Shown one piece after another: positions 2,678 to 50,376 of a DNA stretch of 64,000 bases; position 1 is the first letter of the stretch, and each line of letters begins with the position of its first letter. The translations under genes were made by a program, and so were the position numbers. Below the pieces are notes generated by a model that saw only the letters and a list, made by a program, of their open reading frames with translations, ran no database searches and was not told where the DNA came from. The stretch is from Polyangiaceae bacterium (GTDB taxonomy: Bacteria; Myxococcota_A; Polyangia; Polyangiales; Polyangiaceae), in assembly GCA_013214025.1 (NCBI GenBank), contig JABSRN010000068.1, positions 1 to 64,000 on the forward strand, written 5' to 3'.

Positions 2678-2709
2678 GCTGTAGGGGGTGGTGGCTGTAG
2701 GGGGCGGGA
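2678..2709. repeat. 16-bp imperfect tandem repeat just past the kinase stop
   Basis: GCTGTAGGGGG starts at 2678 and again at 2694, with 13 of 16 positions identical across the unit, and a weaker partial copy lies to the left. The repeat begins a few bases beyond the stop codon of the minus-strand kinase gene. Confidence 0.8.
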
Positions 2710-2712
2710 CGT

Positions 2713-33032: not shown

Positions 33033-33109
33033 AACGACTCATGACACACGGCAGCGTGCCATTACGCCAGACCCTATCAGTCACCATGCCAATGTGGCGG
33101 AACAGTGGC

Positions 33110-33129
33110 GCGTGACAGCGCTGTCACGC
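33110..33129. promoter_or_regulatory. 20-bp perfect palindrome with a third half-site
   Basis: GCGTGACAGC|GCTGTCACGC is a perfect palindrome. The half-site GCGTGACAGCG recurs at 33148-33158. The layout suggests a dimeric regulator site just upstream of, or over, the start of the PilZ gene. Confidence 0.5.
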
Positions 33130-33149
33130 CGAAGTGCGGGGGCGGTGGC

Positions 33150-33581
33150 GTGACAGCGGGCGGATTCGGGGCTAAGCCGAAGCTTGTGGGAAACGGAGCA
33201 GCAGGGGATTCGCAAGCGCCCGAAAGCGGAACGACGCGCTTAGGTGGCGAGCCCGTGGACGTCGCTTGGTCAGTGGATTGTGCAGCGGAGGCGACCTTCT
33301 TGTATTCCGCCGCTCACGAAGATTCCGAGCTCGGAATCTTCGTAGTCACCCGCGAGCCGCTGGATGTCGGAACGCGGGTGACGCTTCGTTTTGAGCCCGG
33401 TGGATCGGAAGCGTCCTATTGTGCGTCGGGCGTGGTTCAGTGGATCAACGCGATGCGCGCGTTATCCGAGAATCGAAATCCCGGTATGGGCGTACTGTTC
33501 TTGGGCCTCGAGCCACAGGACCGTCGTCGACTCAAGGCGACCATTCGGACCTTTGCGTACGTTCGCAATTTCGTGAACTAG
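33150..33581 (+). CDS. PilZ-domain protein (probable c-di-GMP effector)
   Basis: The C-terminal ~105 residues match the small myxobacterial PilZ family: RLGGEPVDVAWSVDC, then SELGIFVVTREPLDVGTRVTLRF, a central VVQWIN strand and PGMGVLFLGLEPQDRRRL. The canonical RxxxR motif is weak, with a single Arg before GGEP, so c-di-GMP binding is uncertain. There is no ATG near the domain. GTG 33150 is my choice; GTG 33105 would place the palindrome inside the gene. A 14-bp duplication supplies a second in-frame stop. The gene is convergent with the anti-sigma gene. Confidence 0.72.
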   Translation: MTAGGFGAKPKLVGNGAAGDSQAPESGTTRLGGEPVDVAWSVDCAAEATFLYSAAHEDSELGIFVVTREPLDVGTRVTLRFEPGGSEASYCASGVVQWINAMRALSENRNPGMGVLFLGLEPQDRRRLKATIRTFAYVRNFVN

Positions 33582-34728: not shown

Positions 34729-35277
34729 TCAGCGAAGCGCGCGCGAGAACTCTTCGTGGCCCGATAGTGCGTCCTGCACGCGACGAAGGGCGGTTCGCAT
34801 GCGCGCGGTCACATCGATTTCAGGAGTTTCTGTCAGCGCCGCGATATCGACGAAGGGCAGATTCGCCACCTCACGAAGCAAATACACCTCTCGCTGATCG
34901 CGAGGCAGTTCCGAGACGACGTCGAGAACCGATGCCCGGACGGGATCGCCTTCAGAGGGCGGGACCCCTTCGGTGTCGTCAGACAGCGAAGTATTCGACG
35001 AGCGCTCAGAATATTCTTCGCAAACTGCGCGCACGATTGAGAAAAGCCACTTCACGAAGCGTTCATCGTGGCGGTATTGCGTGGCCGTTCGCACGATTCT
35101 TACGAATACGTCCTGCGCTAATTCATCCGCTGCCGTGCGGTTGCGGACGGTCAGCAGGATGAAGTTGTACACTCGGCCCTGATGTAGGCGGACTAGCTGT
35201 TCAAAAGCCTCGCGGTTTCCACGCTGATACCGAAGCATGAGCGTTTCGTCGGATGCGTCTTGTTGGGTGGATTTCAA
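34729..35277 (-). CDS. ECF-type RNA polymerase sigma factor
   Basis: The 182-aa protein has region 2 (about 12-80, with RGNREAFEQLVRLHQGRVYN and ADELAQDVFVRIVR) and region 4 (about 118-172, with LPRDQREVYLLREVANLPF and a helix-turn-helix). The linker between them is acidic. It starts with TTG at 35277, behind a GGGAG ribosome site in the complementary strand. It is followed by its anti-sigma gene, and it is divergent from the TPR/FHA envelope operon, which starts 286 bp away behind an ECF-like promoter. I infer that it controls that operon. No matching promoter is evident before its own gene. Confidence 0.91.
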   Translation of the reverse strand: MKSTQQDASDETLMLRYQRGNREAFEQLVRLHQGRVYNFILLTVRNRTAADELAQDVFVRIVRTATQYRHDERFVKWLFSIVRAVCEEYSERSSNTSLSDDTEGVPPSEGDPVRASVLDVVSELPRDQREVYLLREVANLPFVDIAALTETPEIDVTARMRTALRRVQDALSGHEEFSRALR

Positions 35278-35563: not shown

Positions 35564-36406
35564 ATGAGATTCGCTTGGGCGATATGCGCCGTGTTTTTGT
35601 CTGTTGTGCTGGCTGTTCCAACTACTGTTTTGGCACAGCCAACAGATAACGCAGGAGGGGCTGCCGCAGCCCCGGAACGGGACGAGGGTTCCAGTCCGGC
35701 ACAACCAGCGGAGTCCGCCGAAGGCGCTCCGGCAGGGGATGCGGAATCGACTGGGGGCGACGCAGCCCCTGCCGCGAAGGCGCAGCCCAAAGCACTGGCC
35801 GTCGATGGCTCTACCTACGCGGTTCGAATGCGCGATTTGGAAGCTCGGGTTGACGAGCTAAAAGAAAAAATCCGGCGCAGCCATTCTCGACTGAGCCTGC
35901 TCAGCGACACCATTCTGTCTGGCGGTGTCGGCGGCTCGGCTGCAGATATCACTTTCCGAAACGAGATGAGCAGGGCCTTCCGACTGACCCGGGCCTTGTT
36001 CGTATTGGACGGGGCAGTGCAGTACAACAAGCGAGACGAGTCCGGTGGCTTGTCCGAGCAAGCAGAGATCCCGATCTTTAGCGGCTCGATTCCTCCGGGG
36101 GACCACACCCTGCAGGTCTTGGTTCAGCTGCGGGGCCACGGCTACGGCGTTTTCTCGTATCTGCGGGGCTACCGCTTCGAGGTAAAGAGCACGCACTCCT
36201 TCACAGTGACCGAAGGCAAGACGATAAAACTAGAAGCCATCGCCTGGGAAAAGGGCGGCGTGACGACTCCGCTCGAGCAGCGTCCTGATGTTCGATACAC
36301 AGAGAAGATTTCGTCGGGAGCCACGGGAGGCCCCGCGCCCAAATCCGGGGGGAAGTCGTCGAAGGGCGCCTCCGGAAGCTTGTCGATCGGTTCGGGAGGC
36401 AAATAG
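35564..36406 (+). CDS. Periplasmic coiled-coil protein, first gene of the envelope operon
   Basis: The 280-aa product has a Sec signal ending AQPT near residue 25. An Ala/Pro/Glu-rich linker (26-75) and a short coiled coil (MRDLEARVDELKEKIRRSHSR, about 88-108) follow, then a ~130-residue beta-rich domain with GDHTLQVLVQLRGHG, and a Ser/Gly-rich tail. Proteins of this shape, sometimes mislabelled as dihydrolipoamide acetyltransferase, occur beside TPR genes in myxobacterial genomes; there is no lipoyl or acyltransferase motif here. Its TAG overlaps the GTG of the next gene, so they are coupled. A periplasmic structural part of the same machine is likely. Confidence 0.66.
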   Translation: MRFAWAICAVFLSVVLAVPTTVLAQPTDNAGGAAAAPERDEGSSPAQPAESAEGAPAGDAESTGGDAAPAAKAQPKALAVDGSTYAVRMRDLEARVDELKEKIRRSHSRLSLLSDTILSGGVGGSAADITFRNEMSRAFRLTRALFVLDGAVQYNKRDESGGLSEQAEIPIFSGSIPPGDHTLQVLVQLRGHGYGVFSYLRGYRFEVKSTHSFTVTEGKTIKLEAIAWEKGGVTTPLEQRPDVRYTEKISSGATGGPAPKSGGKSSKGASGSLSIGSGGK

Positions 36407-38808
36407 TGAGAAGCCTTGGCGTCCTTAGGGGCGCACTCGTTCTCCTCAGCGGACTGGCGCTAACGTCTGAAGCTGCCGCGATCGGAGCGTCGGCGGCGCG
36501 CCAATCGGCAACGACGACTGTGGTGGAAGCCGAGGTGTCCGCCCAGAAATTGCGGCGGCGTCTCTCGGCGAAAGGCAGGAAACCGCTGGGTGCGGAGAAA
36601 CGCGTCGTGGCTGGAGAGCTGCTGCTCCGCACGAAGGACTACGACCGTTCCATCAACGAGCTCAGCCAGGTGGTCGAGCTCTTCCGCCAAGGCAAGGCAT
36701 CAGCTGGCGTCCATTCCGACGCCCTCTACTACTTGGCCGAAGCCTATTTTCGCAGCCCTGGTGGGGGACAACTTTTGTCGGCTCGGCGTCAGTACGCAGA
36801 GATCGCAAAACGGGGTAACCAATCGCCGTACTCCAAATATGCCGGACGCGCCCTGGGGCGCCTGGTCGACGTTGCGTTGCGGACGGGCGATCTCCGTGGT
36901 TTGGAGTTCGTCTTCGAGCAGATTCGAAAGATCACCCAGCCGGATCCCTCGGGTTCCATCGCTTATGCCCTCGGCAAAGCGCACTTCGCCAATAGAGACT
37001 TTGGCGCGGCGCGCAGCGGGCTGGCTGGTGTATCGCCTGGTACCGCCTTTCATCATCAGTCGGCCTACTTGCTGGGCGTTATCCTGCTCAAAGAGGCGGT
37101 CGCCGGAGGGGGCGCGAGCGACGCCAGCATGCAGCCAACCGCGTCCAGCCCGTCGAACGCCGTCAAGTTCAACGCTGCCATCGCGCAGTTTGGCTTGCTG
37201 ACAAAATTGCCCAGCGACACCGATGAGCATCGCCAGGTGATCGATTTGGCGTGGATGGCCATCGGTCGTCTGCAGTACGAGACTAATCAGTACCTAGAAG
37301 CGGCACGGGCCTACAGCCACATCGATCGTAAGTCGGAACAATTCGGCGAAATGCTCTACGAGCTGGCGTGGGTGTACGTTCGATTGGGCGACTACCAACG
37401 CGCCCAGCGTGCTTTAGAAGTAGTGAGTATCTCGTCGCCCGGGAGCATGCATATCGCGGACGGTTCGCTACTGCGAGCGGATCTGATGCTCCGTTCCGGC
37501 CAATTCGACAAATCCCTCAAGCTTTATCAGAGCGTGCGGAATCAGTTTGATCCGCTGCGCGCCGAAGTTGACGACTTCATGAAGAGCACGACCGATCCGG
37601 CCGTGTACTACGACCGTCTTGTCGAGGACCCGCTTGAGGCCGGTGTCGATAACAAACTACCCGAGCTGGCACTTCGCTGGGTGCGAGAGGAATCCGAAGA
37701 CGATCGAGTTTTCGCTGTGGTCGACGATGTCAATCGGTCTCGTGCACTGATCAAAGAGGCTCGCACTCTGGGTGGCAAACTCGGCGCGGTATTGTCTTCC
37801 GCCACACGCGCCAAAGCCTTCCCGGAGCTGAAGAACCAACTGGAAGCGACCCTCGGCGCGCTGAACTCCGTCAGCCTAGCGCGACGGACTCTCGCGCTAG
37901 GACTCGAGGATTCCAACGACAGTGCGCTGTCGGGGGAAATCGCTTCCGTGCGCGCCGAACGGCGTTCTCTGATGAAACGTCTGGGCTGGGTCCCGGTGAC
38001 TGCCGGTGACTTTGCACGTCGCGAGGGCGCCGGACGCAAACAATGGCGAACCTTATCCCAGGGCCTGCAGAGGCTGAACCTCGAGGCCGACAGACTGGCG
38101 GCGATCATCAATGGGCTGCGCCGAGTGCTGAGGGACGCGGACCAGTACGGCGTCGTTCAGGACTCCGCCAATAGGGAACGATTCATGGAAGGGCTCCGCG
38201 CCAACGAGCAGGACCTTCTTAGTTATCGTCGCGCCATCAAGGAGTATTCGGAGCAGATCGCACTGGGCAGAGTGCAAGTCGGTCTGGGTGACCCACGATT
38301 TGTCCAAGACGCTCAGATTCGCGACCGTTTCCGGAAAGTGTTCGAACGGGAACTGAAACTCGCAGCATCCGGAGCCGCGGGCGAAGACGCTGCGGCCTAT
38401 GCCCGACAAATTGGCCCTCTGCTTTCCCAAGCTCGCAGCGTAGAGAAGACTCTCCACTCTGTGAAATCGGGGATCGATTCCCAGGTTGCGGACGGTAGCC
38501 AGAACCTGGCTGAGGTCGTCCGTCAAGAAATGACGAACATTGATGAATACGCCGGGCGCTTGGACGCCCTGGACAACCACGCGCGATTGCTCGTCGGCGA
38601 AGTAGCCATGAAAAACTTTAGCCTAGTCCGCGACAAGCTGAAAAATATCGTGCTCCGCGCAGACGTTGGCATCGTGCAGGAGGCATGGGAATTGCGCGAA
38701 GAGCAGCGGACCCGCTTGCGAAATTTGCAGCGGGAAAGAGCCCGTGAAGAGCAAAGTCTCAACGATGAACTCCGGGAAGTGTTGGACGACTCCGAGGAGC
38801 AGGAATGA
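36406..38808 (+). CDS. Secreted TPR protein (800 aa), GltC/NfsC-like position
   Basis: It starts with GTG 36406, overlapping the preceding stop, and has a signal peptide ending SEAAA. Residues 60-400 are TPR-type helical repeats (LLLRTKDYDRSINELSQVVE, ELAWVYVRLGDYQRAQRALE, LMLRSGQFDKSLKLYQSV). The second half is long charged helix without repeats, ending in a coiled coil (LREEQRTRLRNLQRERAREE). It should be periplasmic. Gene order and repeat type recall GltC or NfsC of Myxococcus motility and spore-coat machines. I infer this from layout and have not tested it by alignment. Its stop overlaps the next ATG (ATGA). Confidence 0.74.
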   Translation: MRSLGVLRGALVLLSGLALTSEAAAIGASAARQSATTTVVEAEVSAQKLRRRLSAKGRKPLGAEKRVVAGELLLRTKDYDRSINELSQVVELFRQGKASAGVHSDALYYLAEAYFRSPGGGQLLSARRQYAEIAKRGNQSPYSKYAGRALGRLVDVALRTGDLRGLEFVFEQIRKITQPDPSGSIAYALGKAHFANRDFGAARSGLAGVSPGTAFHHQSAYLLGVILLKEAVAGGGASDASMQPTASSPSNAVKFNAAIAQFGLLTKLPSDTDEHRQVIDLAWMAIGRLQYETNQYLEAARAYSHIDRKSEQFGEMLYELAWVYVRLGDYQRAQRALEVVSISSPGSMHIADGSLLRADLMLRSGQFDKSLKLYQSVRNQFDPLRAEVDDFMKSTTDPAVYYDRLVEDPLEAGVDNKLPELALRWVREESEDDRVFAVVDDVNRSRALIKEARTLGGKLGAVLSSATRAKAFPELKNQLEATLGALNSVSLARRTLALGLEDSNDSALSGEIASVRAERRSLMKRLGWVPVTAGDFARREGAGRKQWRTLSQGLQRLNLEADRLAAIINGLRRVLRDADQYGVVQDSANRERFMEGLRANEQDLLSYRRAIKEYSEQIALGRVQVGLGDPRFVQDAQIRDRFRKVFERELKLAASGAAGEDAAAYARQIGPLLSQARSVEKTLHSVKSGIDSQVADGSQNLAEVVRQEMTNIDEYAGRLDALDNHARLLVGEVAMKNFSLVRDKLKNIVLRADVGIVQEAWELREEQRTRLRNLQRERAREEQSLNDELREVLDDSEEQE

Positions 38809-41800
38809 CTTCCCGCGATCGTGCTTGGAGGGGCGCTTTTCGCCCACGTCGTGCGGGGCGATCTGCCTGCCTATTATTGGGAGCGCTGTTCTGCGGCGGT
38901 AGAATGAGCGTCAGCACTGACGCTCATTCCCAACCGAGTGGTGGCACTCAGCCCTCTGCGACCCAGCCCGCGGCGAGTCCCCCGGCCGCAGCGCCCCGGT
39001 CATGGGCAGCTGCTACCCCGGCACCCGCGCGCCCTCGGATCGGATCCAAGAAGCTGCCCCCACCGACTGCGGAGCAGCTCAAGGGGCTGGAGCTCATGCA
39101 GGCCGAGCTGAAGGCCTATGAGGCCGGAGCCAATGATTATCGCGGTACGTTGACGATGATCGTCCGGCATCACTACGAGGAACGAAGGCGCCGTGTCCTG
39201 GCGGCGCTCGACGCGGAGATTGGCATCGAGAGAAAGCGACTCGATGAGGCGCGGGATGAGGCGATCCGTCGTTTGGAGGTGTTTGTCGCGATCTACAGCG
39301 GAGACAACGCGCACCCGTTGGCGACACCGGATGCTATGTACCGGCTGGCCGCTCTCTACGAAGAGCGGACTCGTGCGGACTATGACGCCGAGTTGAGCGA
39401 TGGCCTGAAGAAACCCATCTCCCTGTATCGAGAGATCATAGAACTGTATCCGAACTACGAGGAGATTTCCGGGGTATATTACTACCTCGGGCATGCGTAC
39501 ACCGATTCAGGACGCTTCGACGAAGGTCAGCATGCGTGGAAGTCTCTGGTCTGTTCCAATCGCTATCAGGTCAAGGCGGATCCAAAGGATCCGGAGAAAA
39601 TCTCCGTCCCCCCGATGGAGCAGGACCACGACTTTAAGTTTTGGGACAATTGGTACAACCAAAACCCTGTGCCGATGGACGAAATCATTCCGCTCGAGCA
39701 GCGCGCGACTACCGCGAGCTACGCGGAGCGAAGCGAGGAACGTCGCTACCGCAGTCCCTACGCGGATCCCTGTGAGCGACTTCCCCAGAAGCTAGCGCTA
39801 GGCGAGGAGCCTCGCTATGTCGCTGAAGTTTGGTGGCAGATCGGTAACTACCACTTCGACCAAATGGATCAGAAGGGGGGGCCCTACAATCTAAACCGAG
39901 CGATGAGCGCCTACGAGCGCTCCATGGCGTTCAAGAAGCCGCCGCTTTACGGCGTCGCCATGTACAAGCGTTCGTGGACCTATTTCAAACAGCAGCGGTA
40001 CCGGACGGCGGTTCAATGGTTCGTGAATCTCCTGCACTACGCGGACGAACAAGAGGAACTCACCGGTGATCCGGGGGCAGATTTTAGGCAAGAAGCCTAC
40101 ACCTACATCGCGGGTTCTCTGACCTACGTCGACTTCGATGGCCCCCCCGCGGAGGATCCTTACATTCCGCGTAACGACGTGCTGGACGTCGAGAGCGATC
40201 CCGTGGTCGCCGAGGACAAGATGCGCATCGCTCTTGAGCGAGTGCAGGATCCGGCGCTCGTCCCCCAGGACAAGCCTTGGACGGTTGAGATCTACAAGGC
40301 CCTCGCGCAGGAATTCATCGAGATCACGCATCACCGCAACGCCATCGCCACCTTGGAGATCACTCTGGAGCGTTTCCCGCTCGACCGGGATGCGCCCAAG
40401 ATGCGAAACAAGATCAGCGAGCTGTACGATCAGCTGGCACGTCTGGCCCCCGAAGGCTCCGACGTGAAGCAGGAATACTCCGCTAAAGCCCTCGTGGCCC
40501 GAACCAAGCTGGCTGAATACGTCGGCAGCACCGCGTGGACGGAAGCTAACAAGGACGATCCGGAAGCGCTGCGCGAAGCGGAGGAACTAGTCCGCGAAGG
40601 CCTGCAGCGCGCTGCTGCCGACCACACCAACTACGCTCGCGGCTACTACACGCAGGCCCAACAGGTCAGCGACGAAGAGGGCCTGCGCATCCTCATCGAA
40701 AAATCGATCTCCGAGTATCGGCTGGCGGAGACGGGCTGGGCTGGCTATCTCCAACAAGACACCAACGCTCTCGACGCTTACGAGACGCGCTTCTGGCTGG
40801 CCGATGCCCGATACTGGATCGTCGTTTTGCAACTGGCTGTCGGACGAACGCCTACCCCCAAGGAAGTGACAGCCGCCAACGAGGCAGCCATTGATGTTCG
40901 CGAGTCCCACGAAGATGATAAGTATCTTCAGCCGTCGGCGTACTACCTGGTGACCATGGCGGACCAATTGGTTCAGCGTCAGCACCAAGTATTCGATGAG
41001 ACTGACGGCGCGAGCGGTTTTCAGAAACGCGAAGAACTGGTGTTTGCGGGTGAAGGCGACGCTCGACGAGTCGTGAAGGCGGAAATTCCCCGAATCATCG
41101 TCGATGCCATTGCGGCTCGCCGAGACTACAACGCGCGAATTTCCTACGAAGCCGACCCGCAAAAAAATGGCTTGATGTACACCTTCCAGAACGCCGACTA
41201 TTTCTTCATCTACGGCCATTTTGATGAGGCCAAGGCGATTTACGAGCCTCTCATGACAGAGCATTGCGGCAAGGATGAGTGGGGTTACAAAGCCTGGGAA
41301 AAGCTCATCAGTATGAGCAACTTCAGCAACGACGCCAAGCGCAGCCGTGAGCTGGCCGAAGGAAAGAGTTGCGCCTTCGACGAAGAGACCCAGGCAGCGG
41401 AGGACGCGATCCGCAAGCCGGTGAAGCAGGGCGTTGCCTATCTGGATGCTCGGGAAATGTACAACGCTGCCGAGGGCATGCCCGATGGCCCCGCTCGCGA
41501 CAAGAAATGGCGGGAGGCGGCCGCGGCTTATAGGGTCGCGCTGGACGCCGCACCGGAACGAGACGAAGCGCCGGAAGCCGCCATGAACGGTGCCTACGCC
41601 TACAAGCAGGTGGGGGACTACGACCAGGCGATCGCCATGTACACCCTTTTCATCGATCGCTATGGCAATAGCAAGAATCTAAACGCACTCAGGGACGGCG
41701 ACCCCTCGGCGACTCCGCCCATGGAAGCGGAGCCAAAGAAGTTCGAGGCCCGCGTAAGGTTCTTGAAGATGGCCTTCGATGCTTTGGCCAGCGCCTACGT

Positions 41801-42986
41801 GTTGTTCTTCAACTATCCCAAGGCGGCCGACACCTTCGGAACCATCAGCAAGAACGAAAACTTCACCAGCGAAGATCGAATCTCCGCGGCTCGGCAGGCG
41901 GTGGGCCTCTATGCGAGCTTGGGTGACTCGCGATCAACGCAGAAGGCGCGGGACCGTTTTTTCGCGCTCGGCGCCTCTGCCGAAGAACGAGCGGAAGTCG
42001 ATTTTACGATTGCTTCTGCGACGCTCAAGCAATGGGACGAACACAGCCCGAACTCTGGCGCCAATGCTACCGCGAGGGGTCGTGCGGATCGCGTAATGCG
42101 CGACTATCACGACAGCAACAAGAACAAGGATGCCGCCGCGAAGTTCGTTGTCGAAGCTGCGTTCTGGGTGGCCAAGCTCAAGCATGGCGGCAAGAAGCCG
42201 CAAGAAGACACATGGTGGAAGAAGACCATCGCCGCATACGATCGCTATGCGGCGGTCGCGCCGAAGGCCGAAAACGGCAACAGCGTGGCAGTGGGATCCA
42301 AACAAGCGTCCATGGCCGCCGAGGGCGATTATCGCTTGCTAGACAAGAAGATATCGAAGGCCTTCGATTACGACAATGGCCACCATCGATTCAAGGGTAC
42401 GCCGGTCGAAGTCATCAACGACTACCGAAATGTCGCGGGCGAGGCGGCGGACTGGAACAAGGAGCTGCAGCACATCATCGACAAGTACTCGTCTCCGGAA
42501 TGGGCGACCGCGTCGGTCGCACGACAGGGCACGCTCTACGATTCATTGCGCTCGGGCCTGTACAACACGCGGCCTCCGCAGCTGGTCATGTTCGACAAAA
42601 AGACGGAAAGGCTCCTCGAAAAAGCTGAAAATAGCGATAACGAAGCACTTCAGGAGCAGGCGGACGCAATCCGGATGCGGGTGGAAGGAGCCTGGCGTGA
42701 CGCCCGCGATCAGGAGATCAACTCTGCCGATGAGATCATGGTGGTCCGCTACAGCACGGCGGTCACCCTGGCTCGTCGATACAATGTATCGAACCCGGCA
42801 GTGGTACGCGCCATCCAGCGACTGGCGTTTTTTACGGATATCATCGGTGAGGCGAAGTTGAAGCAGTACACCAGCAATGTGCTGGACCTCAATTACACGG
42901 ACGGATTGTTCCTTCGGATCCGGCCGGGTCTGGTGACGGCGCCGGAGCCGAGCGGCATGCCAGCGCCTCTACCGGCGGCAGAGTAA
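38805..42986 (+). CDS. Very large secreted TPR protein (1393 aa), GltD/AgmU/NfsD-like
   Basis: After a basic N-terminus and a hydrophobic signal (LLLGALFCGG), a Pro/Ala-rich linker leads into a ~1200-residue solenoid of TPR-like helices. Examples are YYYLGHAYTDSGRFDEGQHA, MYKRSWTYFKQQRYRTAVQW and NGAYAYKQVGDYDQAIAMYT. The aromatic- and acid-rich style and the size fit GltD/AgmU and NfsD, periplasmic scaffolds that in Myxococcus span between the inner-membrane motor and outer-membrane parts. It overlaps the upstream gene by four bases and is followed by a TPR lipoprotein gene after 13 bp. No catalytic motif is visible. The orthology is inferred from size, fold and gene order. Confidence 0.76.
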   Translation: MTSRDRAWRGAFRPRRAGRSACLLLGALFCGGRMSVSTDAHSQPSGGTQPSATQPAASPPAAAPRSWAAATPAPARPRIGSKKLPPPTAEQLKGLELMQAELKAYEAGANDYRGTLTMIVRHHYEERRRRVLAALDAEIGIERKRLDEARDEAIRRLEVFVAIYSGDNAHPLATPDAMYRLAALYEERTRADYDAELSDGLKKPISLYREIIELYPNYEEISGVYYYLGHAYTDSGRFDEGQHAWKSLVCSNRYQVKADPKDPEKISVPPMEQDHDFKFWDNWYNQNPVPMDEIIPLEQRATTASYAERSEERRYRSPYADPCERLPQKLALGEEPRYVAEVWWQIGNYHFDQMDQKGGPYNLNRAMSAYERSMAFKKPPLYGVAMYKRSWTYFKQQRYRTAVQWFVNLLHYADEQEELTGDPGADFRQEAYTYIAGSLTYVDFDGPPAEDPYIPRNDVLDVESDPVVAEDKMRIALERVQDPALVPQDKPWTVEIYKALAQEFIEITHHRNAIATLEITLERFPLDRDAPKMRNKISELYDQLARLAPEGSDVKQEYSAKALVARTKLAEYVGSTAWTEANKDDPEALREAEELVREGLQRAAADHTNYARGYYTQAQQVSDEEGLRILIEKSISEYRLAETGWAGYLQQDTNALDAYETRFWLADARYWIVVLQLAVGRTPTPKEVTAANEAAIDVRESHEDDKYLQPSAYYLVTMADQLVQRQHQVFDETDGASGFQKREELVFAGEGDARRVVKAEIPRIIVDAIAARRDYNARISYEADPQKNGLMYTFQNADYFFIYGHFDEAKAIYEPLMTEHCGKDEWGYKAWEKLISMSNFSNDAKRSRELAEGKSCAFDEETQAAEDAIRKPVKQGVAYLDAREMYNAAEGMPDGPARDKKWREAAAAYRVALDAAPERDEAPEAAMNGAYAYKQVGDYDQAIAMYTLFIDRYGNSKNLNALRDGDPSATPPMEAEPKKFEARVRFLKMAFDALASAYVLFFNYPKAADTFGTISKNENFTSEDRISAARQAVGLYASLGDSRSTQKARDRFFALGASAEERAEVDFTIASATLKQWDEHSPNSGANATARGRADRVMRDYHDSNKNKDAAAKFVVEAAFWVAKLKHGGKKPQEDTWWKKTIAAYDRYAAVAPKAENGNSVAVGSKQASMAAEGDYRLLDKKISKAFDYDNGHHRFKGTPVEVINDYRNVAGEAADWNKELQHIIDKYSSPEWATASVARQGTLYDSLRSGLYNTRPPQLVMFDKKTERLLEKAENSDNEALQEQADAIRMRVEGAWRDARDQEINSADEIMVVRYSTAVTLARRYNVSNPAVVRAIQRLAFFTDIIGEAKLKQYTSNVLDLNYTDGLFLRIRPGLVTAPEPSGMPAPLPAAE

Positions 42987-42999
42987 GGACGCGCCGACA

Positions 43000-44397
43000 A
43001 TGCGAACAATTGTGAACATGCCATACGCCAGGTCAACCGAAGCGCTCGGGGGATCCGCGGAGCGGTGTGCCGGCGTAGACGGATTTTGGCCGCTGTCTAT
43101 TTCGCGACTACGGCGCTCGCGACTTGCGTTAGTGAGTGTTTGGATCCTGTGCTCCGCTTGCGGCGGTGGTGCTCAGGTGGGCGCCGAGTCTCCGACAGGC
43201 GGGCCTGGCGCCGGTCCCGGGCCGGCTGGCTCGGGAGCGCTCCTCACCAATTCCGCGGGTCAACAAGTCGCCGTCCAGGAGCTGCCAGGCGCGGCTGCCG
43301 GGCGCCCGCAGATGAATGCCGCTGCTGCTTCCGCTCACGCGGCGGGGCTTCATGCCTTTCAGTCCGGCGATCTCAAGGGTGCCGAAGCGCAGTTTAGCCG
43401 TGCCATAGCAGCCGATTCGAATGCCTACGCGTCGCACTACTCTTTGGGAGTCGTCAAGGAGCGCACCGCAACTGCCAGTCAGGCGCTTGCCAGTTATCAA
43501 TCGTCGTTGAAAATAGTCGGTGACTACTACCCGGCGTTGGCGGGCTTCGCGTCCCTGATGGCGCGCACAGATCAGTCGGACTCCGCCGAGAGCTTCTTAC
43601 TCAGCAAGAAAGCCAAGTATCCGAAATCGGCGTCGGTATTGGCGGCATTAGCCGAGATTAAGTCTGTGCAAGGCGATAGCAGCGCGGCCCAGCAGCTCGC
43701 CCAAGAGGCCCTCAAGTACGTTCCAGATTTTCGACCCGCGATGGTTATCCTCGCGCGGGATCACTACCGAAACCGCCGACTGGATTTGGCTCTGTACACC
43801 TTGAAGGCCATCTTGGATGGCTACGGTCCGGAGAACCCGGCACGCGACAAATCGAACGCGTCCGCCATGTTGCTGCGCGGCTTGATTTACAAGGAGCAAG
43901 GCTTCCGCAAACCGGCCATGGACGAACTCAAACGCGCCCTCGCACTGCGCCCGGATTTGGTAGAGGCCAGACTCAATCTGTCTACCTTCATGCTGGAGGC
44001 GGGCAACGCTTCCGAGGCGGTTCCCTTGCTCGAAGGAGCGCTGAAGTACGATAACTCCAACGTGCTCGTTCATCTCAATTTGGGGGACGGCTACCGCCTG
44101 TTGGGCAAGATAGCGGATGCTCGACGACAGCTGGAATGGGTCTCAGCCAAAGACCAAAACGTCGCTCAGGCTCACTACAACTTGGGCTTGCTGTACATGT
44201 TTTCTAAGGTTGAGGGCATGGACGAAAAGCAATCGCTCACCGCCGCCGTGGAAGCGTTCGAGAGGTTCAAAGGTTTGAGTCATCGTGTGGGCCCGGGTGC
44301 GGGAGACGACGTTGACGCCCTGATCAAGAAAGCCAAACAAAAACTTTCCATCATCGAGGCCTTATCGGCTGACGGTGGGGATGACGGATTCGATTGA
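43000..44397 (+). CDS. TPR lipoprotein (465 aa), GltE/AglT/NfsE-like
   Basis: A long basic N-terminus precedes a hydrophobic stretch ending ILCSACGGG near residue 53, an imperfect lipobox. The true start may be a later codon nearer the signal. Residues 100-440 hold about nine TPRs: AHAAGLHAFQSGDLKGAEAQ, SHYSLGVVKERTATASQALA, LIYKEQGFRKPAMDELKRAL, VHLNLGDGYRLLGKIADARR and AHYNLGLLYM. An outer-membrane TPR lipoprotein in this place corresponds to AglT/GltE and NfsE. It is 13 bp downstream of the large TPR gene, and its TGA is followed within 10 bp by the next gene. Confidence 0.76.
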   Translation: MRTIVNMPYARSTEALGGSAERCAGVDGFWPLSISRLRRSRLALVSVWILCSACGGGAQVGAESPTGGPGAGPGPAGSGALLTNSAGQQVAVQELPGAAAGRPQMNAAAASAHAAGLHAFQSGDLKGAEAQFSRAIAADSNAYASHYSLGVVKERTATASQALASYQSSLKIVGDYYPALAGFASLMARTDQSDSAESFLLSKKAKYPKSASVLAALAEIKSVQGDSSAAQQLAQEALKYVPDFRPAMVILARDHYRNRRLDLALYTLKAILDGYGPENPARDKSNASAMLLRGLIYKEQGFRKPAMDELKRALALRPDLVEARLNLSTFMLEAGNASEAVPLLEGALKYDNSNVLVHLNLGDGYRLLGKIADARRQLEWVSAKDQNVAQAHYNLGLLYMFSKVEGMDEKQSLTAAVEAFERFKGLSHRVGPGAGDDVDALIKKAKQKLSIIEALSADGGDDGFD

Positions 44398-44405
44398 GAG
44401 CGCCT

Positions 44406-44654
44406 ATGACTGTGAAACCTATTGTTGGAAGCGTCGGTCTATTGGTCGCGCTATTGATCGCCCTGGCACCGACGGACGCTCTCGCCCAAAAGGGGCGAGT
44501 CGTTACCATCAGTGAAGTCACCATCGTGGGGCGCATTCAGAAGCCCATTGCCGCTGTGGACGTGAGCCGTATTCAGCCCAAGTTGACCCTCGCGGAACTC
44601 AAGGAACCGTTTCTAGACCGCATCGAACGAGCGATCTACCGAGGCCCTTTTTGA
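44406..44654 (+). CDS. Small secreted protein, possible GltF/NfsF-like subunit
   Basis: The 82-aa product has a signal peptide (hydrophobic GLLVALLIALAP, cleavage after DALA). A ~50-residue mature part follows: VVTISEVTIVGRIQKPIAAV, then LTLAELKEPFLDRIERAI. I chose ATG 44406, eight bases after the previous stop and behind GAGAG, rather than the overlapping TTG 44394. It is co-transcribed with the TPR genes and probably periplasmic. The name is a guess from gene order only. Confidence 0.6.
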   Translation: MTVKPIVGSVGLLVALLIALAPTDALAQKGRVVTISEVTIVGRIQKPIAAVDVSRIQPKLTLAELKEPFLDRIERAIYRGPF

Positions 44655-44680
44655 GGCTTCACCTCCTCAGCATTTCCATT

Positions 44681-44721
44681 TTGAGCACGATGTCCGTGTT
44701 GAGCACGATGGCCATGTTGAG
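44681..44721. repeat. 18-bp tandem repeat, about 2.3 copies
   Basis: TTGAGCACGATG starts at 44681 and 44699 (unit 18 bp, 16 of 18 identical). A partial third copy begins at 44717. It lies 27 bp after the stop of the small secreted-protein gene. Confidence 0.9.
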
Positions 44722-44755
44722 TGCTGATTCAAAATCGAGTTGCCGGCGCTGAGCC

Positions 44756-45304
44756 ATGAGCTGGCTTGCGGCTATCTGCGCGGCGTTGCTTACCGCGGCT
44801 GGTGTGGCTGTGTCGCGCGCGCGGCTGCTATCCGTTCGCGCTATTTGTCTGCCTGGGGTCGGTGCGTCGTTGGAGGCGCTAGGAACGGTCAACGATGTGA
44901 CGCTGGCAGCGGCGGCAGCGTCAGCCCAGGATCCTCGGACTGCGGAATTTCTGGGCGAACTTGGCGTGGAAAGTTCGTTTCCTCACCGCGAGGCGATGGT
45001 CAACGAGGCGCTCCGAGATTTGGACGGGCGACTTCGCCAGGGCGGCACGGTGCCGAAGGCTGCTGCTCGCGCTTCTGTATGTGCGGGGAGTGCGGCAAGC
45101 CTGCTCGGCTTGTCGAACTATCTCGCCGTGCCGGATAGCCCGACGTGGCCCATTGGGGCAGCGCTCGGAGTGGGCCTGGTCGGGGGCCTTCTGTGCACCC
45201 TGCTAGGAGGACGAGCGGAGGAACTAGCCGTCGAGGAGCGCCGCCGAATCCATCGCCTGCGCCAAAAACTCAATCGCTGGATTGACGCCGGAGACCCCGG
45301 ATAG
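44756..45304 (+). CDS. Three-TM membrane protein with TolQ/MotA-like topology
   Basis: The 182-aa product has one N-terminal TM (about 3-20) and a ~85-residue soluble stretch with amphipathic helices. A hairpin of two TM segments (about 105-122 and 132-152) and a basic C-terminal helix (ELAVEERRRIHRLRQKLNRW) follow. This order (TM, cytoplasmic domain, TM pair, charged tail) is like TolQ/ExbB/MotA proton-channel proteins, but I see no clear family motif, so the comparison is topological only. It sits between the small secreted protein and the FHA/AgmX-type gene, where a motor part would make sense. An unrelated membrane protein is equally possible. Confidence 0.58.
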   Translation: MSWLAAICAALLTAAGVAVSRARLLSVRAICLPGVGASLEALGTVNDVTLAAAAASAQDPRTAEFLGELGVESSFPHREAMVNEALRDLDGRLRQGGTVPKAAARASVCAGSAASLLGLSNYLAVPDSPTWPIGAALGVGLVGGLLCTLLGGRAEELAVEERRRIHRLRQKLNRWIDAGDPG

Positions 45305-45687
45305 GCGGCCGATCCTGGGCATCTCGTGTGCGTTTGCGGGATTTTTCGGAAAGTTGCCTGTGGGGGGCCAAGTTTTTCCCGGGCCGCCCGTCCTAGCTCA
45401 TATGGCGAATATCGATGTTCGAGCTTGTCCACAACTGGCTGCCGCTCGCACGGTCGCCACCGACCGGCGAGCGCTCTCGGCAGCCAGGGTTGGCTTCGCC
45501 GTCGTGCGTCCCACAATTCGGTTCGTGATGTCTGTCCGGCCGCCGGACAGACAAGGCAAAAATTGCCACGACTTCGCATGGACCAAAGCCATCCCTCGGG
45601 CTAACCTGGGTCACATTCTCGGGGGATACGACGAGTATCCAACGTTCGGGTATGGGTCCTCGGGAGTGCCGTGACCTGGAGCTTCAG
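45305..45687. other. 383-bp gap before the FHA/AgmX-type gene
   Basis: It contains a strong inverted repeat (45529-45553) and AT-rich patches near 45344 and 45555. I see no consensus promoter. An open frame across it (45282-45674) overlaps the previous gene and has no family features. The FHA/AgmX-type gene may have its own promoter here. Confidence 0.5.
45529..45553. promoter_or_regulatory. 11-bp perfect inverted repeat, 3-nt loop
   Basis: TGTCTGTCCGG-CCG-CCGGACAGACA lies about 135 bp upstream of the FHA/AgmX-type start. There is no T-run. It could be a regulator site or a terminator for the upstream unit. Confidence 0.45.
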
Positions 45688-47091
45688 ATGACGCAACAAC
45701 CTCCCCAGCAAGCAGGACCCGGCGGACGCCCTGGTCAGATGACCGCCGTCATGCGGGCGGTCGCCCAGACCGGTCCGAAGGTTCTTCGTATTGGCCTCGT
45801 TCGCGAAGGACGCGTCATCGAGGAACGAATCATCAAGCAGCGGACTCACGTTACCGTGGGCCCCAGCGAGAAAAACATATTTGTTATCGGTGTGACCGGA
45901 ATGCCGGCATCGTTGAAGCTCTTCGAGCTGGTCGACAACGGCTATTGCCTGAACTTCCTCGACAACATGACGGGGCGTGTGGCTTTGCCGACCGGTGTCT
46001 CGGATCTGGCTATGCTGAAGGGGCAAACCAAGCGCGCTCAGCACGGCTCCTACCAGTTGCGTCTCACTGAAGATTCCCGCGGCAAGGTGATCATCGGCGA
46101 TACAACCTTTCTCTTTCAGTTCGTGGCACCGCCGCCGATTCAACCGAAGCCGCAGTTGCCGGTGTCGGTTACCCAGGGGGCGACCGTGATCGACTGGGGC
46201 ACCACCATGGTGGCGGCTTTTTCGTTCTTGGTCCATTTTACGGGACTCGGTCTGATCTATTCGGACTGGATGGATCCCGTCGTAGATTACGATTTGAACG
46301 TGGCGGCATTGGTCGAGTCGATCAAGGCATTGCCCGCTCCACCCCCCGTCGAAGAAAAAAAGCCAGACGAGGCTGAGGATAAGAAGGAAGCCGAGGCACT
46401 CAAGCCCAAGCCGAAACCCAAGGCAGCCAAGCCGGAAAAGGCCGCGCCTGCGGGCAAGACCCACATCACGAAAGCGGCTGCAGCGGCGTTGAGCAACGAG
46501 CTAGAGAGCCTCGAGATGGCGACTCTGGGCGCGCTGGGTGGTGCCGGTCCGGCAACGGCGGGCGTGTTGAGCAGCTCCGAGGTCCCGACCAGCTCCCTCG
46601 ATCAGGCGGCTGCTAGTAGCGCTGGCGTGTCGGCTGCAGGTGGTCTCAAGGTCGGCGGTGGCGGTGCGATTCGCCCAGGTCAGGCCGGCACCGGCTTGGC
46701 GAACATCGGCAAGACCGGTAAGACCGGACCCAGTGGTAGCGGCAAGGCCACAAAGGTACAGGGGCCCAAAGGCCGCGCCACGGTTGGCGGTGCAAACGTG
46801 GCGGGTGGCTCCGTTAGCAACGCGAGTCGAGTGGTCGCCCGAATGCGCGCGGGTTTCCGAGCTTGCTACAACCGAGCTCTGGCGAATAACCCGGATGTTT
46901 CGGGTCGAATCAACCTGCGCATCAAGGTGGGACCGAGCGGAAACATCACCGGAGTTAGCGCCAGCAAAAGCGGCAACATTCCGGCGTCTGTGGTGGCGTG
47001 CGTGAAGTCACGTGCGCGTAGCGGGACATTCTCCCCGCCCGAAGGTGGCGCCGCGGTAGTCGCGGTCCCAGTGACCTTCGTGAAGCAGTAG
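45688..47091 (+). CDS. FHA-like, single-TM protein with AgmX/PglI C-terminal domain (GltG/NfsG-like)
   Basis: From ATG 45688 (with CTGGAG seven bases upstream) the product is 467 aa. Residues 33-147 form an FHA-like beta domain lacking the classic Arg/Ser/Asn set. Residues 170-190 are a TM helix. A Lys/Pro/Ala linker and a long Gly/Ser region follow. The last ~90 residues (FRACYNRALANNPDVSGRIN, then PSGNITGV and VVACVKSRA) match the AgmX/PglI C-terminal domain, a TonB-like periplasmic module. GltG, GltJ and NfsG share this plan and link cytoplasm to envelope. Two Cys in the last domain may pair. Confidence 0.83.
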   Translation: MTQQPPQQAGPGGRPGQMTAVMRAVAQTGPKVLRIGLVREGRVIEERIIKQRTHVTVGPSEKNIFVIGVTGMPASLKLFELVDNGYCLNFLDNMTGRVALPTGVSDLAMLKGQTKRAQHGSYQLRLTEDSRGKVIIGDTTFLFQFVAPPPIQPKPQLPVSVTQGATVIDWGTTMVAAFSFLVHFTGLGLIYSDWMDPVVDYDLNVAALVESIKALPAPPPVEEKKPDEAEDKKEAEALKPKPKPKAAKPEKAAPAGKTHITKAAAAALSNELESLEMATLGALGGAGPATAGVLSSSEVPTSSLDQAAASSAGVSAAGGLKVGGGGAIRPGQAGTGLANIGKTGKTGPSGSGKATKVQGPKGRATVGGANVAGGSVSNASRVVARMRAGFRACYNRALANNPDVSGRINLRIKVGPSGNITGVSASKSGNIPASVVACVKSRARSGTFSPPEGGAAVVAVPVTFVKQ

Positions 47092-47433
47092 TCGGCGCTG
47101 CTCAAACCCTGTTATTCGTAGCGGCTCGTATGTAAGAGCCGCGTGGTGCGTGCGCGCACATGGGCGTTGGGTCGGCTCGAAGTCGTGCGCTGATGGTGAA
47201 TGCGCCGGATTAGCTCTCCAGGGAGATCCACCGGAAAAAACGCCATTCGAGGGTTGATGCAACAATTTTGGCGAATCAGGATCGACTCCAGTCCCAGACG
47301 TTGCGGTTGGCCGACCTGGGGAATTTGCTATTTGTTAGGGAATTTCGCAAAATATTCGCTATCGGGGTCGCAGAAGCTGAATATTCGGTGCCGTCGGGGC
47401 ATCGGACTGTTTACACATGTTCGCTTGCTCAGT

Positions 47434-47451
47434 GATGCGATTTGTCGCATC
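47434..47451. promoter_or_regulatory. 7-bp stem-loop upstream of the consensus promoter
   Basis: GATGCGA-TTTG-TCGCATC is a perfect inverted repeat about 70 bp upstream of the -35 box. This position suits an activator site or the end of an upstream transcript. Confidence 0.35.
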
Positions 47452-47520
47452 GCCCGTATCGGCAAGCTGAGGGGCGAATGAGGACAACGAAAGCGTTGAT
47501 ACTTTCAAGCCTTAGGCTGA

Positions 47521-47549
47521 TTGACACTAAAATATCGCGTTCATATACT
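47521..47549 (+). promoter_or_regulatory. Consensus sigma-70 promoter of the barrel/OPX unit
   Basis: TTGACA (47521-47526), a 17-bp spacer and TATACT (47544-47549) match the housekeeping consensus at 11 of 12 positions. The start would be near 47556. GAGGAG (47561-47566) then leads to the ATG at 47576, leaving a leader of about 20 nt. Confidence 0.8.
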
Positions 47550-47575
47550 TTCACGGAGTTGAGGAGAGCTGGCAC

Positions 47576-48205
47576 ATGAACATTGATGGGAAGACCTGGT
47601 TGTTGACTGCCGCAGCGTTCTCTTTCGGGGCGACAGGCGTCGCTTCGGCGCAATCAGGCTTGGACGAGCCCAATACGGTCGCACCAAGTGGAAGCCCCGA
47701 GCTGATGGCTCAGCAGGAGGTCTCGCTAAGTGGTGGGGACATGAAGGCCAAAGGGGCTACGATGGGGGCGACGATGGACGCCTCTAGAAAGACTCTCAAG
47801 ACTCAGCTGAGAGACGCCCGGAGCGGAAGCGACGTCGTGAAGACCCTCTGCCTCGAAGACAAATTAAACCAAGTTGATACAGCGATATCGTCCGCCACGG
47901 TGCACCGGGATTCGCTAGAGCGCTTGTTCAAGGCTCCAGACAGCCCAGCAGGCATGTCCCACGAGTTGCTGATGTTGGGGGTGCTCAAGGAGCGCGTTGC
48001 TATGGTGATGGCCGAGGCCAACCAGTGTCTCGGCAACGAAACTGGCTTCATCGGCGAAGCCGAAGTTATTGTCGAGATTGACGAAAATATCGCCAAAATC
48101 GAGCCCACGGTTACGGGCGGCTCCAATGGCGTGGTCCCGTACACGGGCTCCGTTGATAGCGTGCCGGTGCCCACTCCTCCTCGGGTCGTCAGCGACGTCG
48201 AGTAG
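47576..48205 (+). CDS. Secreted helical protein upstream of the barrel gene
   Basis: The 209-aa product has a Sec signal ending GVASAQS (about residue 26). A helical core (55-160) follows with one Cys in TLCLEDKLNQVDTAISSATV and another in MAEANQCLGNETGF, able to pair. The Pro/Val-rich tail may be extended. No family is recognised. It is the first gene behind the consensus promoter and is followed after 83 bp by the outer-membrane barrel gene, so it is probably an export accessory in the periplasm. GAGGAG eight bases upstream supports the ATG start. Confidence 0.7.
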   Translation: MNIDGKTWLLTAAAFSFGATGVASAQSGLDEPNTVAPSGSPELMAQQEVSLSGGDMKAKGATMGATMDASRKTLKTQLRDARSGSDVVKTLCLEDKLNQVDTAISSATVHRDSLERLFKAPDSPAGMSHELLMLGVLKERVAMVMAEANQCLGNETGFIGEAEVIVEIDENIAKIEPTVTGGSNGVVPYTGSVDSVPVPTPPRVVSDVE

Positions 48206-48288
48206 CTCCTCCGCCCGTTCCGAAATACTCTAGCTTAGTCGTCTTTTCATTGCGTTTTCCTTCTCATATCTTCCCGCTCCGTTCACGC

Positions 48289-49677
48289 ATGACGAGTCGC
48301 ACTCTCATCATTACGGCACTATTCCTCTCGCTCAATGGGTTGAGCGCGGCGGCGGTTGCTCAGACCAGCGCCCAACCCTGGTTATCGGATCGGCGAATTG
48401 GCGAGGGTGGGGGCATCCGAACGGGCAATCTCGAATTTCACCCGGGCGTCGCGGGGGAGGTCGGTTACGACTCAAACTATTTTCAAAACTCGGGTCAGGA
48501 GGACGCGACCCACAACGAGCCCATCGTTCCGACTCTGCGCTTTCGGCTTACGCCGTCGCTCAGTCTGTCCACGCTTAACCAACAGCGAAATACCGACGCC
48601 GGGGGCGATGCTCGACCGAAGGCCACATTTCGCCTCTCGGCCGCAGCCACGTACAACGAACTGTGGGCTGCCGACGAGGAGTATGCAGACAACATTTCCG
48701 ATCAGCGAAACCTAGGTGGCAATATCGGAAGCGTCTTGGCGCTCTTCCCGGAGGACCCTTGGGGGGCTGACCTATTAGCCAATTTTGGCCGGGTCGTTCA
48801 GCCAGGAAACGACCCGGGTATCTCCGCGGGCTTCAACCGCAACACCGTGGACGCTGGCGCCGGCGTCAACTGGAAACCGGGTGGCGGGCTCTTCGATTGG
48901 CGCCTGGGCTACGGAATGACCTATCAGTTCTTCGACGATTCCGATTTCTCGTCGCAGAACAGCACCACACATAACGTGAGCACTCGCGGGCGCTGGCGCT
49001 TCTTCCCTCGGACGGCGTTGATTTACTTGGGCCAAGCGGAGTTCATCAACTACTCAGACAGTACGTCCCGACAAAATGGCTCGAGTCCGATCAGCGCGAG
49101 CCTCGGCCTCAATGGCCTGGCGGCCGACCACTTCGGTTTGCTCGTCATGGCCGGTTGGAAGTCGACGTTCTACGAGAACTCACCAGGCGTTCCCGTGAAC
49201 AACTACGATAGTTTCATCGGACAAGCGGAAATGTCGTGGTTCTTGATGCCGCAACCGAAGCTGGAACCCAAGGGGGCGTCGGTCGGCTTGTCCTCGATCA
49301 CCACCGGCTACTTGCGTGACATCAGGAACAGCCTGCTCGGCGACTACTACCAGCGAGACCGAATTTACGGGAACTTCTCCTACTTCGCGGGCGGTGTGTT
49401 TCTGATGACGTTTAGCACCGGATACAGTCTGATTTCCCATCCCGAGACGCGGTTCAGCGCAACTGAGCTGCAGTTCGCTGCCTTCTCCGAGAATCGCGTC
49501 GATGCGACGGCCTTCGGGGAGTACCGATCGACCGATACCTTCGCTCTCAACGCGACTTTGCGCTACAACGGCTCGCTCAACAGCACGGATATCGTGGCTA
49601 TCCCCGGACGGTCTGATCAAGACAACGTTCAGTTCTCTCGCTTCGAGGCCTATCTCGGGGCGCGCTGGTTTTATTAG
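48289..49677 (+). CDS. Outer-membrane beta-barrel, probable polysaccharide exit pore (Wzp/EpsX-like)
   Basis: From ATG 48289 the product is 462 aa, with signal MTSRTLIITALFLSLNGLSA. Long amphipathic strands rich in Tyr, Phe, Trp, Asn and Gly follow, and the protein ends in Trp-Phe-Tyr, a typical barrel terminus. The mature size suits a 16-18-strand barrel. In Myxococcus, barrels of this size (WzpX/S/B, EpsX) form the exit pore for polymers together with short OPX proteins. The next gene here encodes exactly such a short OPX lipoprotein. The open frame extends to a TTG at 48250, but the signal favours 48289. The polymer is unknown. Confidence 0.75.
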   Translation: MTSRTLIITALFLSLNGLSAAAVAQTSAQPWLSDRRIGEGGGIRTGNLEFHPGVAGEVGYDSNYFQNSGQEDATHNEPIVPTLRFRLTPSLSLSTLNQQRNTDAGGDARPKATFRLSAAATYNELWAADEEYADNISDQRNLGGNIGSVLALFPEDPWGADLLANFGRVVQPGNDPGISAGFNRNTVDAGAGVNWKPGGGLFDWRLGYGMTYQFFDDSDFSSQNSTTHNVSTRGRWRFFPRTALIYLGQAEFINYSDSTSRQNGSSPISASLGLNGLAADHFGLLVMAGWKSTFYENSPGVPVNNYDSFIGQAEMSWFLMPQPKLEPKGASVGLSSITTGYLRDIRNSLLGDYYQRDRIYGNFSYFAGGVFLMTFSTGYSLISHPETRFSATELQFAAFSENRVDATAFGEYRSTDTFALNATLRYNGSLNSTDIVAIPGRSDQDNVQFSRFEAYLGARWFY

Positions 49678-49693
49678 AGACCTCCTCCTCCTA

Positions 49694-49713
49694 GGGACCC
49701 CTCGTGGGGTTCC
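49694..49713 (+). terminator. 8-bp stem with TCGT loop between barrel and OPX genes
   Basis: GGGACCCC-TCGT-GGGGTTCC pairs fully with one G-U. It begins 16 bases after the barrel stop and has no T-run, so it may lower rather than stop transcription into the OPX gene. Confidence 0.4.
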
Positions 49714-49788
49714 GCAACCGACGGACATCCCCACGTGTCACATAGCTTGCCGAGTCGGCAGCCCCGCTGCCGGCGTTATCGAGCAGTC

Positions 49789-50376
49789 ATGCTGCTCTGT
49801 TGTTTTTCATGGCTCGCCGCCGGGGTGGCGGCATGCGGCCCTAAGGTGGACAACTCCCTGGTCAAGCTGCCGGAGCCGGTGGAGAGCACGACCGTCGGCG
49901 CCGGCGATAGTTTCTCGCTGACCGTTGTGGGGGAGGAGGATTTGCCCACCGAATATCAGGTGGGCTCGGACGGAACCGTGGACCTACCCTATGTGCAAAA
50001 TATCAAGGTGGCTGGTTTGGAGCCCCAAGAGATTAGTCGCCGCGTTCGTGAAGCGCTGATTCAAGGTGACTTTCTTCGCGACCCGAGCGTAGTGGTTCGA
50101 GTGAAAGAGTACCGAAGCAAGCGCGTGAGCTTACTGGGTCAGGTTCAAAAGGCGGGAAGCTTTCCGCTGACCCCTGGATTGACCTTGGTGCAGGCGATCT
50201 CCCTCGCCGGCGGATTGAACGCCATTGCCCATCGAGATCGAATCAACCTCAGCCGGAAGACCGCGGACGGGACCAAGACAGTGACGGTCTCTTTGGATGC
50301 CATCACCGATGGCCGGTCACCTGATTTACTGCTGCAAGCGGGAGACCGCATCTACGTACACGAACGCGTATTCTGA
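49789..50376 (+). CDS. Short OPX (Wza-like) polysaccharide export lipoprotein
   Basis: The 195-aa product from ATG 49789 has a lipobox at Cys16 (LAAGVAAC). Residues 34-105 form the polysaccharide export (PES) domain with VGAGDSFSLTVVGEEDLPTE and GSDGTVDLPYVQNIKVAG. Residues 112-190 form one SLBB domain with VSLLGQVQKAGSFPLTPGLT and GDRIYV. It ends right after SLBB, without the extra SLBB and C-terminal helix by which E. coli Wza crosses the outer membrane. It therefore needs a separate pore, and the barrel gene just upstream supplies one. I chose Met 49789 over GTG 49735 because the signal starts there. Confidence 0.9.
   Translation: MLLCCFSWLAAGVAACGPKVDNSLVKLPEPVESTTVGAGDSFSLTVVGEEDLPTEYQVGSDGTVDLPYVQNIKVAGLEPQEISRRVREALIQGDFLRDPSVVVRVKEYRSKRVSLLGQVQKAGSFPLTPGLTLVQAISLAGGLNAIAHRDRINLSRKTADGTKTVTVSLDAITDGRSPDLLLQAGDRIYVHERVF

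Follow-up and report, generated by a model that had tools for sequence, protein, structure and literature searches.

The stretch of DNA analysed here (the window) comprises the first 64,000 nucleotides of contig C150 (C150:1-64000) of a Polyangiaceae bacterium with a genome of 5.77 Mb, 97% complete. Ten genes on its + strand, within 35564-50376, form the block with which we are concerned, in the order X280-GltC-GltD-GltE-GltF-(3TM)-GltG-Sec209-Wzp-OPX, where 3TM stands for a protein with three transmembrane (TM) segments (Table 1). The initial annotation of this DNA had described these genes as a Glt/Nfs-like C-D-E-F-G machine joined to a Wzp/OPX polysaccharide exit. All of them were found at the expected positions and on the expected strand, and the junction of the two parts is borne out by profile scores, by an 18-strand model of the barrel and by synteny throughout the phylum. 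We propose, with a probability of about 0.6, that the block is a proton-driven Glt-type trans-envelope machine dedicated to one exported polysaccharide.

The proteins of the first part are distant relatives of the Glt components. The GltC-like protein matches the gliding_GltC model NF033756 (E 5.8e-17, 61.7 bits against an equivalog cut-off of 450) and the GltE-like protein the gliding_GltE model NF033758 (E 2.2e-20, 73.1 bits against 225). The GltG-like protein matches NF033760 over residues 33-476 (E 5.7e-25, 87.9 bits against 650), and its AgmX/PglI (TonB-like) tail scores 57 bits with NF033768, above the cut-off of 40, so that the suggested relationship of this protein to GltG stands. It consists of an N-terminal soluble domain, one TM segment (estimated at 184-202), a Pro-rich linker and the tail. 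The FHA-like domain first ascribed to it was not detected: the Pfam scan returned no FHA match and the GltG model aligned only from its position 192 onward, and a canonical FHA domain was consequently rejected. All 20 of the nearest genomes have relatives of this protein, and in nearly all of them these include clear orthologues; some Polyangiales carry second GltG copies, near which neither Wzp/OPX nor other block genes were recognised. The family profile of the GltD-like protein matches the GltD-position protein of another cluster of this genome, on contig C47 (E 2.2e-20), where it adjoins a GltC scoring 280 bits. The assignment of GltF rests on slot, size and signal as in M. xanthus GltF (PMC3169522), not on sequence alignment, and the protein shares 30-84% identity with the same-slot protein of relatives. 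Pfam and NCBIfam scans recognised no GltA, GltB, GltH, GltI, GltJ or GltK-type gene in the block. X280 belongs to no Pfam or NCBIfam family; its AlphaFold model has one long helix (82-122) and an 8-strand beta sandwich (125-250, pLDDT about 95), and no PDB match was convincing (best Foldseek E 1.4e-3; VIA Z 9.3, rmsd 3.6, 100 residues aligned). Such a transthyretin-like sandwich is common and gave no basis for a function.

The likeness to Glt and Nfs is one of homology and not of identity. The cluster at C47:108000-127900 is a second Glt/Nfs-type cluster, with GltC, GltD, GltE and GltG, and its GltC and GltG score 280 and 343 bits (with FHA-type matches), against 57-62 and 88 bits in the window. 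Furthermore, strong and weak GltC classes lie side by side in most of the 22 genomes searched, none of which passes the GltC equivalog cut-off. Because the C47 cluster is the closer one and both classes coexist in most genomes, the block is, on these profile comparisons, a separate paralogous family, neither Glt nor Nfs itself. In the C47 cluster, a TPR protein comes after GltG, together with an open frame exceeding 2500 aa that has TPR-like matches and is reminiscent of GltI/AgmK. Compared with the Agl-Glt and Agl-Nfs systems of M. xanthus (PMC3169522, PMC3858216), the block has the same GltC-D-E-F-G layout, an AglRQS-type motor and the AgmX/PglI tail of GltG, but it falls below all equivalog cut-offs, has no detectable FHA domain and no recognised GltA, GltB, GltH, GltI, GltJ or GltK, and carries X280, Sec209, Wzp and OPX in addition.

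The second part has the features of an outer-membrane exit. The AlphaFold model of the barrel (pLDDT 83.5, pTM 0.80) has 18 long strands; its structural matches include OpdO, an OprD-family porin (VIA Z 19.0), AlgE (Z 18.2, rmsd 4.2, 324 residues aligned) and the PgaA barrel 4y25 (E 1.5e-6). The model thereby agrees with the EpsX, ExoB and WzpB barrels, published as 18-stranded (PMC9601211, PMC9603273). The OPX protein has a Poly_export domain (PF02563, E 2.4e-19) and an SLBB domain (PF10531, 2.5e-13), which together cover residues 50-208, and no membrane-spanning C terminus, as in short Class 3-type OPX proteins. With the predicted 18-strand barrel next to it, it would form a composite OPX/Wzp translocon. 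Sec209 shows 25-39% identity within Polyangiales and profile matches across the phylum. In an OPX tree, the block-linked proteins, that of the window included, fall largely into one group (92/76) apart from the EPS-type OPX. This moderately supported group holds 28 linked members and 3 others, two of which are the same relocated copy of genome G025; three linked OPX with long branches lie outside it.

The two parts are kept together well beyond the window. Polyangiales retain the order X280-C-D-E-F-G-Sec209-Wzp-OPX, and in at least 80 X280 loci from Polyangiales and their neighbours the order is shared as far as the DNA extends, with few exceptions. When coordinates were compared in 15 records, among them Minicystis rosea and two genomes each of Sorangium and Polyangium, 14 had OPX on the strand of X280, 13.5-14.5 kb downstream. 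X280 is present in 75 of 101 good Myxococcota genomes, and mapping of the cluster across the phylum, as first suggested, found the block kept together in about 20 families. Outside Polyangiales, in loci with enough DNA, a hand count gave the barrel in 17 and OPX in 12 of 20. Maf and RluD, which flank the block, are retained chiefly in and around the family of the window, and the block consequently persists where its surroundings do not. This recurring order is more than chance. A search for viral contigs returned no matches.

Many loci outside Polyangiales hold a TolQ-ExbD-ExbD (AglRQS-type) motor in the 2-3 kb between GltF and GltG, as judged by Pfam in two loci and by profiles in the others, and in 11 loci the block is complete, embedded motor and OPX included. 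In Polyangiales this slot is taken by the 3TM protein. The initial annotation had noticed the three TM segments, and it is their meaning that changes: an alignment of the protein and its counterparts in 17 relatives with the embedded AglRs by hhalign (P 92, E 6e-7, 167 columns) runs nearly end-to-end, against E 0.077 or worse for reversed, shuffled and unrelated controls, and shows it at the sequence level to be a degenerate AglR. An equivalence with GltH or with GltA/B was rejected, as the AglR alignment favours the degenerate AglR. The GLLGTV-type motif, found in 53 of 54 AglRs, is lost in all 18 of the 3TM proteins; that of the window is probably no longer a proton channel.

Intact motors are nevertheless encoded in this genome. 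Two divergently oriented AglRQS sets lie at C150:92685-97384, beyond the window and about 42 kb past OPX (set B, C150:92685-94445; set A, C150:95497-97384). Both retain the Asp in the ExbD transmembrane helices, and the pair is conserved across Polyangiales. In an AglR tree, in which Minicystis, Sorangium and Polyangium are placed among members of the window genome's family, set B clusters with the block-embedded motors (95/98), and set A falls among further stand-alone ones (100/100). Genomes without an embedded motor all have a stand-alone AglR at least 45% identical to set A (19 of 19), whereas in the 6 genomes with an embedded motor no AglR outside the block exceeds 39%, a contrast that used the Polyangiales set A as query and may in part reflect relatedness. 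In the simplest reading of these sequences, the motor that belonged to the block has left it, with the degenerate AglR remaining in the slot as its trace. The combination of one TolQ and two ExbD that characterizes the Agl/Glt core is thus embedded in relatives and represented here by the two C150 sets. As separate observations, in G045 (contig C150) a GltG-like gene directly adjoins a stand-alone AglRQS, which suggests another Glt-type system, and at C150:116115 a further protein with an AgmX/PglI-type tail, weakly similar to GltG and GltE, lies beside a TPR protein.

The polymer itself would be made elsewhere in this genome. The absence of adjacent polymer-synthesis genes, pointed out by the initial annotation, holds for the window and its OPX, but not for several relatives, where PCP-2A and sugar genes are found. 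Three OPX genes were found in the genome. One, on contig C142, lies within a full pathway (OPX, phosphoglycosyl transferase, Wzz, glycosyl transferases), and another, at C8 8755-9774 (-), has two SLBB domains and weak sugar-transferase matches nearby. Contig C138 has no OPX but encodes a PCP-2A-type co-polymerase that carries a kinase domain, together with an aminotransferase, a nucleotide-sugar dehydratase and a Wzy_C-like protein. In 7 of 20 genomes, homologues of this co-polymerase (32-40% identity over about 700 aa) follow the block on its downstream side at a distance of no more than 20 kb, and several of these genomes also have the dehydratase (47-52%) and the aminotransferase (51-55%) there; the C142 co-polymerase hardly matches them. 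In a Sandaracinus metagenome-assembled genome (MAG) the block is followed by PCP-2A, and UDP-sugar dehydrogenase genes stand beside PCP-2A or the block in two genomes. Such a dehydrogenase is expected for a uronic-acid polymer. Because the C138-type co-polymerase adjoins the block in relatives, the C138 cluster and the block probably belong together and lie apart in the window's genome. The proposal that the block is a stand-alone output module is probably not correct, given a sister motor and a matching synthesis cluster elsewhere in the genome that relatives carry in or beside the block.

Table 1. Genes of the block and the divergently oriented regulatory pair (window coordinates)
Feature	Position	Strand	Basis or remark
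X280	35564..36406	+	secreted; marker of the block phylum-wide; N terminus signal-peptide-like
GltC-like periplasmic TPR protein, 800 aa	36406..38808	+	NCBIfam NF033756
GltD-like periplasmic TPR protein, 1393 aa	38805..42986	+	TPR/YfiO-type matches; family profile against C47
GltE-like TPR protein, 465 aa, putative lipoprotein	43000..44397	+	NCBIfam NF033758; lipobox-like LCSAC
GltF-like small secreted protein, 82 aa	44406..44654	+	slot, size, signal
3TM protein, 182 aa, read as degenerate AglR (TolQ/ExbB-type)	44756..45304	+	hhalign
GltG-like inner-membrane transducer	45652..47091	+	NF033760; NF033768
Sec209, secreted, directly before the barrel	47576..48205	+	conservation in Polyangiales; phylum-wide profile matches
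Wzp-type outer-membrane 18-strand beta barrel	48250..49677	+	AlphaFold model; structure matches
Short (Class 3-like) OPX lipoprotein, 213 aa	49735..50376	+	PF02563, PF10531; lipobox VAAC
Divergent ECF sigma factor, possible block regulator in Polyangiales	34729..35277	-	PF04542/PF08281
Putative anti-sigma factor partner	33616..34638	-	one predicted TM segment, 97-115; N-terminal Cys-rich segment

A comparable arrangement may exist in M. xanthus. The G4 cluster has a gltD paralogue, MXAN_1922, to which no function has been assigned (PMC3169522), and locus tags place this gene 6 genes from WzpB (MXAN_1916) and 7 from WzaB (MXAN_1915), in the order of our block. With GltD at 1922, tags 1921-1915 would fit E, F, G, Sec209, Wzp and OPX plus one extra gene; both statements are comparisons of tags and order only. 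WzaB has been described as an orphan-like OPX, 1.016 Mb from the synthesis cluster of the biosurfactant polysaccharide (BPS), whose co-polymerase WzcB is a PCP-2A (PMC7310880); it is the sole one of three OPX genes downstream of its barrel (PMC9603273), WzaX and WzaS lying upstream of theirs (PMC9603273, PMC9601211, PMC7310880); and its orthologue in Sandaracinus amylolyticus forms one contiguous stretch with WzcB, WzyB and WzxB (PMC7310880). The window resembles this system in its 18-strand barrel followed by a short OPX, orphaned from synthesis genes, with PCP-2A elsewhere; here that PCP-2A is on C138, and in seven relatives it stands beside the block. It differs in that WzpB-WzaB was published as an orphan exporter, the searched parts of those texts mentioning no Glt-type neighbour or motor. 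Our literature search found no statement linking G4 to WzpB-WzaB and no mention of MXAN_1917-1919, 1921, 1923 or 1924. A seven-protein Agl/Glt core complex was furthermore described in 2011 in gamma- and deltaproteobacteria, its function then unknown (PMC3169522); the block shares with it the motor and GltC, D, E and G, but adds GltF, X280, Sec209 and a dedicated outer-membrane polysaccharide exit.

These comparisons bear on two other uses of such a machine. The block might serve gliding, with its own slime exporter and the polymer as an adhesive for locomotion, as the homology to Glt components, the AglRQS-type motor and the use of slime in M. xanthus gliding (PMC3858216) would allow; we regard this as improbable, because a separate and closer Glt/Nfs-type cluster exists on C47, motility of the MXAN_1922 mutant was normal (PMC3169522) and none of the further Glt genes was recognised in the block. 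A spore- or cyst-coat machine confined to development has a precedent in Nfs, which moves the Exo polymer at the spore surface and builds the spore coat, the Exo exporter being encoded apart from nfs (PMC3858216). We consider it slightly less probable still, since the X280 marker is also found in many MAG lineages without known sporulation and in genomes of 3.3-4.2 Mb, and since WzaB, the M. xanthus OPX that matches, serves BPS, a polymer whose absence alters vegetative swarms (PMC7310880, PMC9603273).

Upstream of the block, the ECF sigma factor is present in most Polyangiales loci with coverage, and its anti-sigma-like partner is co-conserved. Just upstream of this pair lie a PilZ-domain protein (window 33105-33581), a possible link to c-di-GMP, and a PMT_2-type glycosyltransferase membrane protein (window 30123-32978), a possible link to glycans.

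Three observations weigh against a dedicated, coupled machine. The intervals between GltF and 3TM (101 bp), 3TM and GltG (347 bp) and GltG and Sec209 (484 bp) leave room for separate promoters. The link of OPX to the block is looser than that of the barrel, OPX being missing beside the block in 8 of the 20 loci outside Polyangiales; profile inspection downstream in the loci with a barrel and without OPX found no OPX, and no synthesis genes were found around the relocated OPX of G025. Finally, motility was unaffected by a polar mutation in MXAN_1922, polymer phenotypes being unreported there (PMC3169522). As a separate observation, in G017 a von Willebrand factor A protein of 914 aa (1377-4121, -) follows the barrel where OPX would be expected. 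The separate spacing of the two parts, the sigma/anti-sigma-like pair kept beside the block in Polyangiales and the occasional location of OPX elsewhere would also suit neighbours that lack any mechanical coupling and are held together by co-regulation or a shared condition, such as a regulon of the divergent ECF sigma factor. We take this to be the most serious alternative, though an unlikely one: the link is phylum-wide, yet the sigma factor was not detected beside the block in most of the non-Polyangiales loci sampled; barrel and Sec209 mostly stay even where OPX has left; and in many lineages the motor lies inside the block, between the two parts.

A polysaccharide-dedicated machine could work as follows. 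The AglRQS-type proton channel, which many lineages have inside the block and which lies 42 kb away here after relocation, would drive the single-TM GltG, whose AgmX/TonB-like tail would reach a periplasmic TPR scaffold of GltC-D-E-F with X280. The scaffold would contact the Wzp barrel and OPX in the outer membrane, X280 and Sec209 being the block-specific parts. A polymer from a Wzx/Wzy-type pathway with PCP-2A (on C138 here, adjoining in several relatives) would leave through OPX/Wzp, and the motor would energise this exit, or move the polymer or deposit it at the surface, in the manner of Nfs and the Exo polymer (PMC3858216). From gene linkage we infer physical contact between the halves and energy coupling, and the chemistry of the polymer may be BPS-like.

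More tentatively, the AglRQS-GltG motor may mechanically energise the Wzp/OPX exit, or carry polymer through or away from it. This would be the original role of the Agl-Glt core in Myxococcota, and the spore-coat and gliding machines would have split off from it later; G4 and WzpB-WzaB would then share this function. Agrebi et al. in 2015 (Nat Rev Microbiol 13:318) reportedly argued for a capsule-assembly system as the origin of the machines for gliding and sporulation. An evolutionary connection was thus their proposal; the connection noted here lies at the operon level.

Many myxobacteria keep a Glt-type machine and a polysaccharide exit joined, which suggests that the motor originally served to drive an exported polymer or to lay it down. 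The union of the two halves in one block, in which the motor often lies between them, yields a testable proposal, that the motor serves the exported polymer. This bears both on the Agl/Glt core, to which the 2011 description gave no function outside gliding and sporulation, and on the orphan WzaB-WzpB. It predicts that Wzx/Wzy-type export may be tied to a proton-driven envelope motor, a component absent from the export models in the papers cited.

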